From a virus: 39,067 nucleotides of DNA. This document shows positions 2,672 to 13,828 of the stretch, in pieces (the stretch's first letter is position 1; each line of letters opens with the position of its first letter). Position numbers and translations under genes: made by a program. The stretch is from the IMG/VR virus record IMGVR_UViG_3300045741_000093, positions 1-39,067 of that record, one strand, 5' to 3'. Below the pieces are notes generated by a model. It ran no database searches and was not told where the DNA came from. It was given only the letters and a program-made list of their open reading frames with translations.

Positions 2672-2706
2672 CATAAAAATTTATGCGTTTACTTGCCCCG
2701 TGTCAA
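2672..2706 (-). promoter_or_regulatory. Leftward promoter with overlapping dyad operator
   Basis: On the minus strand, TTGACA (2706-2701), a 17-base spacer and TAAATT (2683-2678) precede the HTH gene. A dyad CATA-N6-TATG spans 2672-2685, centred between the fifth and sixth bases of the -10. The same arrangement recurs at four other leftward promoters. The promoter lies within the end of the small membrane gene at 2681-2797. Confidence 0.7.
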
Positions 2707-2797
2707 CGGTGCAGGTCCGCATTGCGGCTTCATCGTCCGCAGCGATCCACCAGAGGACCGCGCCAAGCGCGAAGGTCACAGTGATCCAGTGCATCAT
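2681..2797 (-). CDS. Small single-pass membrane protein, 38 aa
   Basis: A 38-residue reading frame from the ATG at 2797 to the TAA at 2683-2681. Its ATG overlaps the stop of the beta-helix gene (ATGA), and a strong Shine-Dalgarno GGAGGA lies just upstream. The N-terminal half (WITVTFALGAVLWWIAA) is hydrophobic enough to span the membrane once, followed by a short acidic and polar tail. No family is recognised. Position in the early operon suggests a host-takeover or superinfection role, but nothing in the sequence proves it. Overlap with a promoter at its 3' end is unusual but common in compact phage genomes. Confidence 0.6.
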   Translation of the reverse strand: MMHWITVTFALGAVLWWIAADDEAAMRTCTVDTGQVNA

Positions 2798-3387
2798 TTT
2801 TCCTCCGGAATACGTCCTGTGTTTTTGGCAATGCTAATAAGTACATAGCCATACTCTTTCCAGAAGCGCGTGGATCGCACGCCGTCCATGGCTGCTACGC
2901 GGCGGTCATTAAATGTTTGCCATTCGGTCAGCAGGTGCGTTTCGCATCCGCACTGCATATGCTTGTCTGTGAGAGTCACAACATAGATGAGGCCGGATAT
3001 GGTGATGGGCGTTTTGGTAGCCCGCGCGTCACCAGAGACCTGCGCGTCACCAGAGACCTGCGCGTTGTCATAGACCTGCGCGTTGCCAGAGACCCGCGCG
3101 TTGCCAGAGACCCGCGCGTTGCCATAGACCCACGCGTCACCAGAGACCCGCGCGTTGCCATAGACCCACGCGTCACCAGAGACCCGCGCGTTGTCATAGA
3201 CCCACGCGTTGTCAGAGACCCACGCGTTGCCGCAAATCGACAGATTGTTTTCGTTCTCAATCCACCCGCCGACTGTGCCGGCGGCTAAATCTCCTATCGC
3301 CACGAGTGCCCTGATGCGCTTTAGGGTCACGCCGCCGAGCATAGTGTGTGTTTCCCCGGTGAACTCGTATTTTTTGTTGTTAGACAT
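2794..3387 (-). CDS. Short-period repeat protein, predicted left-handed beta-helix
   Basis: A 197-residue early protein. Residues from about 50 to 125 are a run of six-residue repeats of the form (N/D)A-x-V-(S/Y)-(G/D), for example GDAWVYGNARVSGDAWVYG, which is the pattern of left-handed beta-helix or hexapeptide proteins. Similar repeat proteins occur in many phages, mostly with unknown function. The N-terminal 45 residues contain a small domain (TLKRIRALVAIGD) and the C-terminal 70 residues are non-repetitive, with a CGCETH segment. The ATG at 3387 has the Shine-Dalgarno AAGGAG 9 bases upstream. The gene lies directly behind hammerhead ribozyme 1, whose cleavage would leave a leader of about 61 bases. 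Confidence 0.8.
   Translation of the reverse strand: MSNNKKYEFTGETHTMLGGVTLKRIRALVAIGDLAAGTVGGWIENENNLSICGNAWVSDNAWVYDNARVSGDAWVYGNARVSGDAWVYGNARVSGNARVSGNAQVYDNAQVSGDAQVSGDARATKTPITISGLIYVVTLTDKHMQCGCETHLLTEWQTFNDRRVAAMDGVRSTRFWKEYGYVLISIAKNTGRIPEEK
3023..3238. repeat. 18-bp tandem repeat inside the beta-helix gene
   Basis: Eleven clear copies and one degenerate copy of an 18-bp unit, plus-strand form CGCGCGTTGCCAGAGACC with variants at the TTGCC/TCACC/TTGTC and CAGAG/CATAG positions. Because 18 is a multiple of three, copies can be gained or lost without frameshift, and the other frames also stay open across the array. Confidence 0.95.
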
Positions 3388-3412
3388 GCCGCTTTCTCCT
3401 TGTTACGCCCCG

Positions 3413-3475
3413 TGCTCATCAGCTGCGGTTTGGGGCACTATGCCGCAGGACGCGGGATAGGCCCCGCGTTTCGCA
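3413..3475 (-). ncRNA. Type II hammerhead ribozyme 1
   Basis: Read on the minus strand: UGC (3475-3473), GAAA (3472-3469), stem III CGCGGG/CCCGCG (3468-3463 with 3456-3451, loop GCCUAU), U (3450), C (3449), stem I CUGCGG/CCGCAG (3448-3443 with 3428-3423), CUGAUGA (3422-3416) and GCA (3415-3413). Every core position of the hammerhead consensus is present, including the G10.1-C11.1 closing pair of stem II and a GUC cleavage triplet. Predicted cleavage is between 3449 and 3448, about 61 bases before the ATG at 3387. Stem II is only 3 bp locally, but an outer helix between ACGCCC (3514-3509) and GGGCGU (3410-3405) could close it. The order of elements makes it type II (open at stem II). Confidence 0.85.
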
Positions 3476-3531: not shown

Positions 3532-3810
3532 CTACTGAGGCCAGTTAAGTCGTTCAGCTATTTTTGCCAAGCGTGGGTCATAGCAGTCTCCCCCGTATCT
3601 GAACTGGGCGTCAGCTGTACTCTCGTGCTTTTCAAGAAGCGCGATGCCTAGCGCATTAACCGCTACACACCACTCTTCTTGACCGATAGCCATGTACAGA
3701 AAAGGCATTTCGTCCTCCGGGTCATAGCACTCAGCGGCTATTTCCCTTACGTACTCTTTCACTAAAAAGGCGGTTTTACCCGCCTCTGTTACAGCAGAGC
3801 GTTTAATCAT
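3532..3810 (-). CDS. Hypothetical early protein, 92 aa
   Basis: A small acidic protein from the ATG at 3810, with GAGG 6 bases upstream as ribosome binding site. The sequence is rich in acidic residues and cysteines (ECYDPEDEM near residue 27, GGDCYDPRL near 74). The CYDP segment occurs twice about 48 residues apart, hinting at an internal duplication or a shared binding motif. No family is recognised. It is flanked by two hammerhead ribozymes: ribozyme 2 ends 21 bases upstream of its start and ribozyme 1 lies downstream. Its message would therefore be released as a single-gene RNA. Early phage proteins of this size often modulate host enzymes, which is inference only. Confidence 0.7.
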   Translation of the reverse strand: MIKRSAVTEAGKTAFLVKEYVREIAAECYDPEDEMPFLYMAIGQEEWCVAVNALGIALLEKHESTADAQFRYGGDCYDPRLAKIAERLNWPQ

Positions 3811-3830
3811 GTTGAACCTCGTGTTGTGCG

Positions 3831-3897
3831 ACCCGCCATCTTCAGGGGTGAGCCGGTCAATGCTCGCCCGACGCCCCGGCGGGGCGTTTCGGCAAGT
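3831..3897 (-). ncRNA. Type II hammerhead ribozyme 2
   Basis: Minus strand: stem II 5' arm ACUUGCC (3897-3891), GAAA (3890-3887), stem III CGCCCC/GGGGCG (3886-3881 with 3877-3872, loop GCC), U (3871), C (3870), stem I GGGCGAGC/GCUCACCC (3869-3862 with 3853-3846, one mismatch), CUGAAGA (3845-3839), U (3838), stem II 3' arm GGCGGGU (3837-3831). Stem II has 7 pairs including two G-U. The single unpaired U between CUGAAGA and stem II departs from the canonical core, where stem II follows directly. Predicted cleavage after the GUC at 3870 leaves a 59-base leader before the ATG at 3810. Confidence 0.75.
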
Positions 3898-3927: not shown

Positions 3928-4284
3928 TCACTCTTGCTCTATCAGGTTGAAAATGACTTCTTCTCCGTGCATCAATGCCCGCATCTCATCGAAAGTCGCG
4001 TAATCAGCGAGATACCAGTTTTTTCCCTCTGCTGTAGCTTCGCCGTCATCATCATAGTGCATGCTTTCAGCAATACACGGGGCGCCAGTCAGTGCGAGCG
4101 GGTTCGTCATCCGCGTTTCGCTATCAAAATAGCTGTATGAGCCGTTCGATGAATGACTTTCCAGAAGGTCACACCATATCATGTTATAGGGTTCGCTTTT
4201 AATGTAGTTTTCGATTAATTCAACTCCGTTATCCGTTGCCTTTACGGATAGATTGCCGTTTGCAAGTTCTGTAATCATTAACAT
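3928..4284 (-). CDS. Hypothetical early protein, 118 aa
   Basis: A 118-residue acidic protein without a recognised domain. Aromatic and acidic residues dominate the second half (YLADYATFDEMRALMHGEE). It begins with two nearby in-frame ATGs; the one at 4284 follows GGAG with a 10-base gap, and the one at 4278 is an alternative. The gene sits between hammerhead ribozyme 3, whose cut at 4338/4337 leaves a leader of 53 bases, and ribozyme 2. Codon use is less G+C-biased than in the structural genes, as in the neighbouring early genes, which may mean recent acquisition. No function is claimed. Confidence 0.72.
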   Translation of the reverse strand: MLMITELANGNLSVKATDNGVELIENYIKSEPYNMIWCDLLESHSSNGSYSYFDSETRMTNPLALTGAPCIAESMHYDDDGEATAEGKNWYLADYATFDEMRALMHGEEVIFNLIEQE

Positions 4285-4304
4285 GATCTTTACTCCAAGG
4301 GCCT

Positions 4305-4360
4305 GCCATCGTCAGGCGAGCGGGGCCATTCGCTCGCGACCCGCTTTAGCGGGTTTCAGC
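4305..4360 (-). ncRNA. Type II hammerhead ribozyme 3, overlapping a stop codon
   Basis: Minus strand: GCU (4360-4358), GAAA (4357-4354), stem III CCCGC/GCGGG (4353-4349 with 4344-4340, loop UAAA), U (4339), C (4338), stem I GCGAGCG/CGCUCGC (4337-4331 with 4322-4316, 7 perfect pairs, 8-base loop), CUGACGA (4315-4309), U (4308), GGC (4307-4305). Stem II is short (G-U, G-C, C-G) and preceded by the same extra U as in ribozyme 2. The GAAACCCGC segment also encodes the last three codons (Glu-Thr-Arg) of the upstream gene, and the loop holds its TAA stop. Predicted cleavage follows the GUC at 4338. Confidence 0.78.
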
Positions 4361-4621
4361 TCGTGCTTGTTCTACTATCTTCAGCGCTTGCGCCGTTGTG
4401 GAGGCTTCTATATATACACAAAACGCGCCGCCACGAGTATAAACGGCCACGACACGCCCGTGCCCCCAATAGACACCACCGCGATCATAATAGCCGTCAC
4501 CTCCGCAGTGTTTGGTGTATAATTTCCCGTTAACAGGAATATCGTTTATATCGTCTCCAGCGCGCCCCATCGGCGCGCCACGTTCTGTTTTTACTCTGAC
4601 GAATGGATTAAATCTTGACAT
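4346..4621 (-). CDS. Hypothetical early protein, 91 aa
   Basis: A 91-residue basic protein, rich in glycine, tyrosine and arginine (CGGDGYYDRGGVYWGHGR near the middle), with a helical C-terminus. No family is recognised. The start is placed at the ATG at 4621, because the longer open frame begins inside the -35 box of the promoter at 4656-4684 and would precede the transcription start. A weak GGGG lies upstream as ribosome binding site. Its final codons and stop double as part of hammerhead ribozyme 3, so cleavage would cut its message just 8 bases after the stop codon. It is the first cistron of the ribozyme-punctuated group. Confidence 0.7.
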   Translation of the reverse strand: MSRFNPFVRVKTERGAPMGRAGDDINDIPVNGKLYTKHCGGDGYYDRGGVYWGHGRVVAVYTRGGAFCVYIEASTTAQALKIVEQARAETR

Positions 4622-5426: not shown

Positions 5427-5978
5427 AACGGTTCATGCAACGCTTCGTCCCTTGCCGATGCGGGACGCTTTGCGCCCGCCAGGCAGGTGACGGGGCGTAA
5501 CAGCAAAGGGCGCAATCTATGGCCGTTCACAGGTATGACAAAACGCAAGTTTACGGGATTGCAGGGCGAAAAGGCGGGGGAGTGACGTTCGGGCGGATTA
5601 GCTGAATTGACGATATGGCGGGGCCTTCGAAAACTATTCAATGAAATCAATGACTTAGCTGAATTGCAAACTATTATTATTATTATTTTCAAACCTGAAC
5701 GGCCCGTTCAACCCGCCAAATCAGGGCTTCAGGGCATTGCGGGCGGCGCACCCGGCCGATTTGGTGCGAAAACGCGGCGTTCACAACATTCGAGATCGGG
5801 GGTAGGGGGAGCCCCCAAACGATTTGCACAGCGCCGCGCGGGTCTAACTCCACAGTTTTCGGGTCCATCTGAACTTGTAAACCATTGTTTTCTATTTTCG
5901 CTCCGAATATGAACTAGCAAACTTGTGTTATAGCGGCACAAAACGAACCGGAATCTCGTGTTTTCCCGCAGCCGGGGC
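5427..5978. other. Gene-free divergent region with several inverted repeats
   Basis: No convincing gene is seen in these 552 bases. It holds a hairpin CGTCCC/GGGACG (5446-5467), a longer TTGCGCCC/GGGCGCAA pairing (5470-5515), a direct 12-bp repeat TTAGCTGAATTG (near 5598 and 5655), a short ATT microsatellite around 5672-5688, and GGGG-GAGC-CCCC near 5805. A weak rightward promoter-like pair TTGTTT (5885) and TATGAA (5908), 17 bases apart, is also present. Open frames here have no ribosome binding site and no protein-like composition. Position suggests a replication origin, packaging site or regulatory RNA, but nothing decides between these. Confidence 0.5.
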
Positions 5979-12462: not shown

Positions 12463-12743
12463 TAAGCCCGAAAACAAAAGCTCGGGTCCGTCAGCAGGCG
12501 CTGCGCGCTATGTGCATTGGGCCCGACGGAAAGCTGACTAAGAATGCTCAGTTGATTCTCGCCTACTTGCGGCGCGAATGCAACGGAGACGGGCGATACG
12601 GGCCACCTGTGTCGTCAGTGACAGGAACTATTGATCCGCTCGCGATGGCGCGGGCGGCCGGGCGGCGCGAAATTTTTGACCTTCTCGCTCGAGTGCTGAG
12701 CGTTACGATCGAAGACCGCCATAACTTGGAGGAAAACTTATGA
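12459..12743 (+). CDS. Bbp19-like phage protein, 94 aa
   Basis: A 94-residue basic protein. The layout of a helical start (VRQQALRAMCIGPDGKLT), a central loop and the DPLAMARAAGRREIFDLLARVL end resembles the small Bbp19-type proteins found beside podophage portal and scaffold genes, whose role is unknown. The ATG at 12459 overlaps the preceding stop, and its own end overlaps the scaffold start, so translation is coupled on both sides. Confidence 0.6.
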   Translation: MISPKTKARVRQQALRAMCIGPDGKLTKNAQLILAYLRRECNGDGRYGPPVSSVTGTIDPLAMARAAGRREIFDLLARVLSVTIEDRHNLEENL

Positions 12744-13717
12744 CTATTCATCAGCGTGTGTTTGAAAGCGCAGGAGTTCTACGGGCGCCAGAAACTGGAG
12801 CAGGCTCCAGCGGCGGTGATGCAGGCGCTGGGGCTACTGGCGGTGCCGGTGCAGCTGGTGCGGGGGCTACGTCTGTGTTTGGCGGCCAGACCGGCCAGAC
12901 CGGCCAGACCGGCCAGACCGGCCAGACCGGCCAGCAGCAACAGGCGGACGGGTGGTTCTCGAAGCTCTCGCCCGAGGACAAAGCGTGGGCGGAAAGCAAA
13001 GGTTGGAAGGCCGACACCGATCCGTTCGCCATCCTTCAAAGCTACCAAAACCTAGAGAAGTTGTTCGGCGCGGACAAAACAGGCCGCACTGTCATGCTTC
13101 CTAAAGACGCGAACGACAAGGCGGCTATTGACGCAATCTACGATAAGCTCGGGCGGCCGAAGTCGCCGGACGACTATCAGATCGACTTGCCTGACGGTGC
13201 CGATCCTGGGTTCGCGAACGCTGCGCGGGGCTGGTTCCACAAAGCCGGGCTGACCGCCGACCAAGCGAAGGCTGTCACCGAGAGCTACAAGGCGCTCGAA
13301 TTGGACGCGGTACAGCGCGTGCAAACTGAGCACGCACAACAGGTCGAGGGGCTCGAGAAAGAGTGGGGTGCGCAATTCGACCAGAAGGTCGAAGTCTCGA
13401 AAGCCGCGCTAAAGGCAGCGGGCATCACCGAAGCGCAAGCTAAAGCTGTTGAAAGTGCGCTTGGCCCCGCCGCTGCTGCAAAGATGTTTGAGTTCTTCGG
13501 ACGAAACTACGTGGAAGCAGAGCCCCCTAACAACGAGACGCGGACAGCAGCGGGCTTCAGCACGCTGTCTCCGGCAGCGGCGAACCAAAAGATGGATCAG
13601 CTTCGAGGAGACCCAAACTTCATGGCGCGCTACTCACACGCCGATCCAAAAGTACGCGCGCAGGCAATCGAAGAGATGGACGCACTTGCAAAGCTTGCAG
13701 TGAACGCCAAAATCTGA
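12740..13717 (+). CDS. Capsid scaffolding protein
   Basis: A 325-residue protein directly ahead of the major capsid gene, the standard place for the scaffold that shapes the prohead and is then removed. It has an N-terminal low-complexity region (about residues 20-68) rich in glycine and alanine and with a run of Gly-Gln-Thr repeats. A conserved domain with PDDYQIDLPDG and WFHKAGLTADQAKAV follows, then long charged helices and a C-terminal QKMDQLRGDPNFMARY segment typical of phage scaffolds that bind coat protein. It ends 45 bases before a strong terminator. The ATG at 12740 overlaps the upstream stop. Confidence 0.85.
   Translation: MTIHQRVFESAGVLRAPETGAGSSGGDAGAGATGGAGAAGAGATSVFGGQTGQTGQTGQTGQTGQQQQADGWFSKLSPEDKAWAESKGWKADTDPFAILQSYQNLEKLFGADKTGRTVMLPKDANDKAAIDAIYDKLGRPKSPDDYQIDLPDGADPGFANAARGWFHKAGLTADQAKAVTESYKALELDAVQRVQTEHAQQVEGLEKEWGAQFDQKVEVSKAALKAAGITEAQAKAVESALGPAAAAKMFEFFGRNYVEAEPPNNETRTAAGFSTLSPAAANQKMDQLRGDPNFMARYSHADPKVRAQAIEEMDALAKLAVNAKI
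12884..12934. repeat. 9-bp tandem repeat in the scaffold gene
   Basis: Five full copies and one partial copy of GGCCAGACC encode Gly-Gln-Thr repeats in the low-complexity N-terminal arm of the scaffold. The perfect DNA identity of copies indicates recent slippage. Confidence 0.95.
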
Positions 13718-13761
13718 TATATACGACATGCCCTCCAAGGGCGTTTCCTCCTTGAAACTAA

Positions 13762-13793
13762 CGGGCCAGGTTCAAACCTCGGCCCGCTTTTTC
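13762..13793 (+). terminator. Intrinsic terminator between scaffold and capsid genes
   Basis: A hairpin with an outer CGGGCC/GGCCCG stem and an inner AGGTT/AACCT stem, joined by one bulged C, followed by CTTTTTC. It would reduce readthrough from upstream genes and lies just before a new promoter, so capsid synthesis is set separately. Confidence 0.85.
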
Positions 13794-13799
13794 ATTTAG

Positions 13800-13828
13800 T
13801 TGACAACTTGCGAACGCAGTATTACAAC
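13800..13828 (+). promoter_or_regulatory. Promoter for the major capsid gene
   Basis: TTGACA (13800-13805), 17-base spacer, TACAAC (13823-13828). It follows the terminator directly and drives the capsid gene through a leader of about 127 bases. No dyad of the leftward operator type is present. Confidence 0.65.

Follow-up and report, generated by a model that had tools for sequence, protein, structure and literature searches.

Three predicted type II hammerhead ribozymes in successive intergenic gaps of a podovirus-like phage, and a possible role in cutting its early message

The element at 3413-3475 raises the question of whether a hammerhead ribozyme is present between two phage genes and, if so, what a self-cutting RNA would do there. 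The window, by which we mean the whole stretch of DNA that was analyzed, is a 39,067-base virus record that encodes a T7-type portal, a terminase, a phage DNA polymerase, a primase/helicase, and an exonuclease. Its minus strand holds a series of small genes at 5325-2681, which we infer from their position to be early. Within this series, the minus-strand order is A-HHR0-B-HHR2-C-HHR1-D, with three candidate hammerheads, one in each successive intergenic gap:

4346..4621, minus strand: gene A, 91 aa, from the ORF list and sequence; no Pfam or PHROG match
4295..4361, minus strand: HHR0, candidate type II hammerhead between A and B; RF02276 33.4 bits (match 4361-4297), below cut-off
3928..4284, minus strand: gene B, 118 aa, start 8 nt after GGAG (4296-4293); no family match
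3825..3894, minus strand: HHR2, candidate type II hammerhead between B and C; RF02276 24.7 bits (match 3894-3827), below cut-off
3532..3810, minus strand: gene C, 92 aa, start preceded by GAGG (3820-3817); no family match
3413..3475, minus strand: HHR1, candidate type II hammerhead between C and D, from sequence, Rfam RF02276, and a strict descriptor
2794..3387, minus strand: gene D, 197 aa, beta-solenoid/bactofilin-like repeat protein (PF18836 2.6e-18, PF04519 6.1e-7)
2681..2797, minus strand: small ORF, 38 aa, from sequence, overlapping D's stop, no hammerhead intervening

A search for intrinsic terminators in the minus-strand gaps between genes A and D returned none. Gene D contains an 18-bp tandem repeat (11.7 copies, window 3021-3231) that matches its beta-solenoid repeats. 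As judged by eye, the 38-aa ORF resembles MRWI..ALG proteins that are located after a hammerhead in two related contigs, L010 and L019.

Read 5' to 3' on the minus strand, 3475..3413 is UGC-GAA-ACGCGGGGCCUAUCCCGCGU-C-CUGCGGCAUAGUGCCCCAAACCGCAG-CUGAUGA-GCA, which divides, together with the adjoining tail and ribosome-binding site, as follows:

3475-3473/3415-3413, minus strand: stem II
3472-3470, minus strand: GAA (G12-A14)
3469-3450, minus strand: stem III
3449, minus strand: C17, with the predicted cut between 3449 and 3448
3448-3423, minus strand: stem I
3422-3416, minus strand: CUGAUGA
3407..3411, minus strand: 3' tail GGGGC, complementary to GCCCC of loop I (3436-3432) over five Watson-Crick pairs
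3396..3400, minus strand: ribosome-binding site AGGAG of gene D, from sequence, 8 nt 5' of the ATG (3387)

The preliminary description had called this element a fully canonical hammerhead. The core letters that it listed (CUGAUGA, GAAA, an A-U pair at 15.1/16.1, C17, and G10.1-C11.1) are all correct on the minus strand, the strand itself having gone unstated; A15.1-U16.1 is 3469/3450, and stem II is UGC/GCA, a helix of 3 bp that includes G10.1-C11.1. The 14-nt loop of stem I is present as quoted, as is a nearby ribosome-binding site (3400-3396). Both stems I and III had been given as 6 bp, which is right for stem I, whereas stem III consists of eight pairs including one G-U. Since stem II is open and hairpins close stems I and III, the element is of type II.

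The other two elements can be divided in the same way:

4357-4355, minus strand: GAA of HHR0
4354-4339, minus strand: stem III of HHR0
4338, minus strand: C17 of HHR0, with the predicted cut between 4338 and 4337
4337-4316, minus strand: stem I of HHR0
4315-4309, minus strand: CUGACGA of HHR0
4327-4324/4303-4300, minus strand: pseudoknot GGCC/GGCC of HHR0
3890-3888, minus strand: GAA of HHR2
3887-3871, minus strand: stem III of HHR2
3870, minus strand: C17 of HHR2, with the predicted cut between 3870 and 3869
3869-3846, minus strand: stem I of HHR2, with one C-A mismatch
3845-3839, minus strand: CUGAAGA of HHR2
3858-3855/3833-3830, minus strand: pseudoknot GACC/GGUC of HHR2

All three have the core CUGANGA, GAAA, an H (not G) at position 17, and A15.1-U16.1. 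Stems I and III are closed by loops and stem II is open in each, with the single mismatch in stem I of HHR2, and the pseudoknot between loop I and the 3' tail, for which about four or more pairs are expected, has five Watson-Crick pairs in HHR1 and four in each of HHR0 and HHR2. None reaches the Rfam gathering score of 37 bits for Hammerhead_II (RF02276), HHR1 scoring 27.7 bits. That cut-off is a curator's listing threshold and no defining property, so membership rests on core, topology, and pseudoknot. The strict descriptor matched twice in the window (HHR0 and HHR1) versus no match in 300 dinucleotide shuffles; HHR2 fails it because of the C-A mismatch. A covariance model, R1, was built from 28 hammerheads with HHR0 included and HHR2 left out, and it scores HHR2 at 41 bits (E 9.9e-9). 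Its match to HHR1 is weak (17.3 bits, E 0.039, positions 5-54) because the tail of HHR1 differs, and the homologues of HHR1 in L010 score 13.2 bits (E 0.51). Compensatory helix changes are seen both for the HHR1 group (6 rows) and for HHR0 in a gapless alignment, A2 (28 rows), in which HHR0, itself a row, agrees with the phage type II consensus. Taken together, HHR0, HHR1, and HHR2 appear to be type II hammerhead ribozymes that would cleave themselves.

Relatives of HHR1 were found in a few contigs. L010, whose portal is 94% identical, has two copies of the element with the same core, ahead of two unrelated genes; L019 has three HHR1-type elements and one of HHR0 type, and L020 has one of HHR1 type. 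Across the six aligned rows of this group, five pairs are altered on both sides compared with a shuffled mean of 1.3, and 94.0% of cells are paired versus 88.6% after shuffling. A pattern search added two more HHR1-type elements, in L340 and L341, which have different pseudoknot letters. R1 was run over 17 sources; at E up to 1 its matches are confined to the window, L005, the contig represented by L010 and L018, L019, and L020, and it finds no hammerhead in the remaining portal relatives, whose DNA is largely fragmentary. Since most portal relatives show no hammerhead in the DNA that was scanned, the trait would be dispensable in the wider group. When applied to 13 whole records, R1 matched two at E up to 0.1. 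Searches with protein B, with protein E (2654-1854), and, in genome contigs, with the portal alignment gave no relatives, although E-like proteins are present in L010 and L019. The pattern CTGATGATGGCAGG, intended for HHR0 relatives, proved to correspond to the 3' half of the consensus of phage type II hammerheads, and the pattern match in L339 is a chance one that reads as coding sequence. An alignment, A4, was left out of the counts because MAFFT had misaligned stem I in three of its rows.

A larger class set was assembled from two viral-contig pattern scans and the relatives, giving 231 hammerheads (208 distinct) at 120 loci, a few of which are pieces of one contig. The 208 hammerheads and the 28 rows of A2 were picked by a descriptor that requires stems I and III, so that the full pairing of these stems in A2 holds by construction, and the conserved core letters were part of the search patterns; the pseudoknot and the placement of stops and starts were not selection criteria. 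A2 comprises 28 of 38 hammerheads of one geometry, after rows at least 88% alike were dropped. With a stem-blind pattern, stems I and III form in 69 of 81 distinct matches in viral loci (L142-L220), compared with 14 of 1620 when arms are swapped, and in 80 of 129 matches in genome loci (L221-L338), compared with 20 of 2580.

The preliminary description proposed that the loop of stem I could make tertiary contacts, and this is borne out by the pseudoknot with the tail, which recurs in the homologues. The pairing is kept with altered letters as GCCGCCC/GGGCGGC in L010 and L019, GGCGCCC/GGGCGCC in L341, and GCGGCCC/GGGCCGC in L340, and is weaker in L020, with four pairs. In 143 of the 208 distinct hammerheads, loop I and the tail have at least four Watson-Crick pairs, compared with 50.5 on average and 66 at most under permutation. 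Within the 28 gapless rows of A2, both sides have changed in three of the four pairs of the pseudoknot, and 78.6% of cells are paired. Such a pseudoknot was reported and tested for type II hammerheads by Perreault et al. (2011, PMC3088659).

An outer helix, ACGCCC/GGGCGU, had also been suggested to close stem II. The letters are present (3514-3509 with 3410-3405), but homologues showed no such pairing: in L010, L019, and L020 the longest complements to the tail within the upstream 70 nt are only 4-6 nt and, by length, no better than loop I in most. The 3' strand of this helix (3410-3405) overlaps the pseudoknot tail (3411-3407) at 3410-3407, and as the same tail bases would be used, the two pairings compete. 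The GGGCGU strand is, as far as the sequences allow, better explained as the partner of loop I in the pseudoknot. The competition between cleavage and translation that had been tied to the outer helix is possible through the pseudoknot instead. HHR0 is the clearer case for it, since the UAA stop of gene A (4348-4346) lies inside its stem III loop, 8 nt 5' of the predicted cut.

In one respect "fully canonical" overstated the case. When pseudoknots are left out, the minimum-energy fold of HHR1 is another hairpin (GGGGCCUAU with AUAGUGCCCC) at -32.4 kcal/mol versus -21.7 kcal/mol for the hammerhead. With this gap of ∼11 kcal/mol, HHR1 is an unfavorable folding case compared with the class, in which the median gap to the hammerhead fold is 1.5 kcal/mol (207 members, pseudoknots likewise ignored). 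The HHR1-type relatives in L005 and L019 have gaps of ∼14-17 kcal/mol, and the fold favored there includes the pseudoknot helix itself as a nested stem.

The position of the ribozymes relative to genes was counted in the class. On viral contigs, with ORFs of at least 40 codons, a stop codon lies within 10 nt 5' of G12 in 131 of the 195 hammerheads with enough upstream DNA, compared with 104 of 1963 random positions and 13 of 194 antisense ones. Among the 199 with enough downstream DNA, 176 are followed within 80 nt by a ribosome-binding site and start, compared with 495 of 2013 random positions and 29 of 200 antisense ones. Genome contigs give a similar picture: the stop is at most 10 nt before the ribozyme in 67 of 93 (34 of 885 at random positions), and 71 of 89 have a ribosome-binding site and start downstream (175 of 907 at random positions). 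We considered whether a conserved A before GCC was a mere stop-codon end; this was ruled out, as the A is also present in 50 of 64 hammerheads with a distant stop. No locus among the 120 has hammerheads on both strands, and a locus can hold up to nine. One codirectional ORF fills at least 75% of the distance in 51 of the 93 spacings of 100-1500 nt between hammerheads. Of 186 class members, 159 have an upstream ORF that ends ahead of the cut and 11 gave no ORF; in the other 16 an ORF crosses the cut site, and these count against a role in separating genes. In the window, the distance from stop codon to G12 is 37 nt for HHR2 and 59 nt for HHR1, which is looser than in the class.

Sequence, structure, conservation, covariation, and placement together make it likely, in our judgment, that the three type II hammerheads punctuate the leftward early transcript and cut the A-B-C-D message into single-gene mRNAs with hairpin ends. 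Each ribozyme would fold in its intergenic gap into three helices and the pseudoknot between loop I and tail, and would cut itself directly 3' of C17 as transcription proceeds. The upstream mRNA would then end in stem III, past its own stop codon, and the downstream mRNA would carry the stem I hairpin at its start, ahead of the ribosome-binding site. A type II hammerhead has its open end at stem II and its cut site between the other two stems, so that both products would terminate in closed hairpins, and with a stop before the cut and a ribosome-binding site after it, two complete genes would be separated. Hammerhead cleavage leaves a 2',3'-cyclic phosphate on the upstream product and a 5'-hydroxyl on the downstream one, and the mRNAs released here would be expected to carry these ends, with possible effects on their stability and translation. 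The tight stop-ribozyme-RBS spacing in two collections makes the idea directly testable: it predicts one 5'-hydroxyl end per gap, single-gene mRNAs, and retention of the stop codon on the upstream piece, and cutting may depend on translation of the upstream gene.

There is a familiar parallel in T7, in which RNase III sites between the early genes cut the early message and leave hairpin ends; a protein enzyme does the cutting there, whereas the message of the window would be cut by its own RNA. Type II hammerheads were already proposed in 2011 to cut long phage transcripts (Perreault et al., PMC3088659), so that neither this class of ribozyme nor the notion of message cutting is new; the novelty lies in this example and in the measured stop-cut-start layout. 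The type II set of that study (RF02276) has in common with the window the core, the open stem II, the hairpins on stems I and III, the pseudoknot between loop I and tail, and the occurrence of several copies flanking single phage genes (PMC3088659). The window differs in belonging to an uncharacterized podovirus-like phage in which all copies fall below the Rfam cut-off, and in the stop-ribozyme-RBS spacing being measured here, the term "stop codon" being absent from the main text of PMC3088659. Triple arrays described in Agrobacterium tumefaciens, Azorhizobium caulinodans, and Clostridium scindens are, like ours, clustered in one operon; all three cleave in vitro, and the A. tumefaciens set also cleaves in E. 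coli (PMC3088659). The A. tumefaciens array flanks ardA, whereas genes A, B, and C of the window match no family and cleavage there is predicted. The HHphage of haloviruses HF1/HF2, which is 13 nt from the start of the early gene that follows it, resembles the window in this placement and differs in that one copy is described, in an archaeal virus, with a core variant (PMC3088659). A 2017 review notes that prokaryotic hammerheads flank small non-conserved ORFs and calls their roles an open question (PMC6155905). Among the open-access papers we searched, none was found that measures stop-to-ribozyme spacing.

The content of the genes between hammerheads suggests a different reason for their persistence, namely that the ribozyme and leader repeats are retained mainly as shared boundaries at which accessory genes are swapped by recombination, with RNA cutting secondary. 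Clustering sorts the 195 downstream proteins into 109 groups, and the window, L010, and L019 differ in the genes that they carry from protein X (5325-4717) to protein E. Within contigs, 15 hammerhead pairs have cores that are alike at 85% or more, and 14 of these pairs precede nonhomologous proteins, as does the identical-core pair of L010. Such pairs, however, are 15 of 226; within-contig pairs are mostly unlike (median core identity 0.62) and thus offer little homology for recombination, although their pairing is kept, and plain boundary repeats would require neither core nor pseudoknot. Gene turnover beside the hammerheads fits a role as cassette borders, and we regard swapping as the main reason for their presence as unlikely.

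About as hard to sustain, and slightly less probable still, is a switch acting on translation, in which the fold or pseudoknot beside the ribosome-binding site controls initiation downstream and ribosomes terminating upstream time the folding and cutting. The pseudoknot tail ends 3 nt (HHR0) or 6 nt (HHR1) before the ribosome-binding site, in many class members the stop runs into stem II or directly adjoins it (in 37 a UAG shares G11.3), and the stem III loop of HHR0 holds the stop of gene A. This close placement may merely reflect compact phage genomes, and HHR1 and HHR2 in the window have their stops well upstream, at the distances given above. We know of no ligand or protein site for such a switch. 

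A broader scheme we put forward as speculative and rather doubtful as a whole: phage type II hammerheads might be a general stop-cut-start mark, running from a stop codon to the next ribosome-binding site, that doubles as a cassette border. A terminating ribosome would keep the ribozyme open until the gene has been read, the cut would free a hairpin-ended single-gene mRNA, and, the border being self-contained, unrelated genes could be inserted or swapped without disturbing the expression of their neighbors.

It is improbable that the elements are inactive hairpins resembling hammerheads, for which the scores below the Rfam cut-off and the unfavorable minimum-energy fold of HHR1 would speak; a complete core and covarying helices and pseudoknot, three times in a row, argue against it. 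Least credible of all is the release of RNA circles or free small RNAs by paired hammerheads with later ligation, for although successive hammerheads do flank short segments, and four contigs have two of them 23-27 nt apart, the segments in the window are coding genes with ribosome-binding sites, and a search for spliced or circular products by Perreault et al. was negative (PMC3088659). The back-to-back pairs precede one gene each, at L103 (-) 599-669, L143 (-) 965-1039, L167 (+) 174-249, and L184 (-) 895-970 (offsets counted along the hammerhead strand); cutting by both members of a pair would free an RNA of ∼70-80 nt.

Several further features were seen in the window and its relatives. A match to the suhB/mmgR sRNA (RF00519) lies at 13723-13800 on the plus strand, in the gap after the ORF 12740-13717, and scores 47.5 bits, above the gathering score. 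The same family exceeds that score in six of eight relatives scanned (L004 7328-7405, L006 6384-6461, L007 14896-14971, L008 14842-14915, L010 13457-13533, and L015 14896-14971). This sRNA is alphaproteobacterial, which may indicate an alphaproteobacterial host or an sRNA borrowed from a host. L008 also has a tRNA match above the gathering score at 5436-5575, adjoined by Y-RNA-like (YrlA) matches below theirs. An alanine/arginine-rich repeat protein of ARRAYDEATA type is encoded once in L010 (4167-3532, minus strand) and twice in L019 (5927-5520 and 5468-5061, minus strand), and each of these gene copies has its own hammerhead leader.
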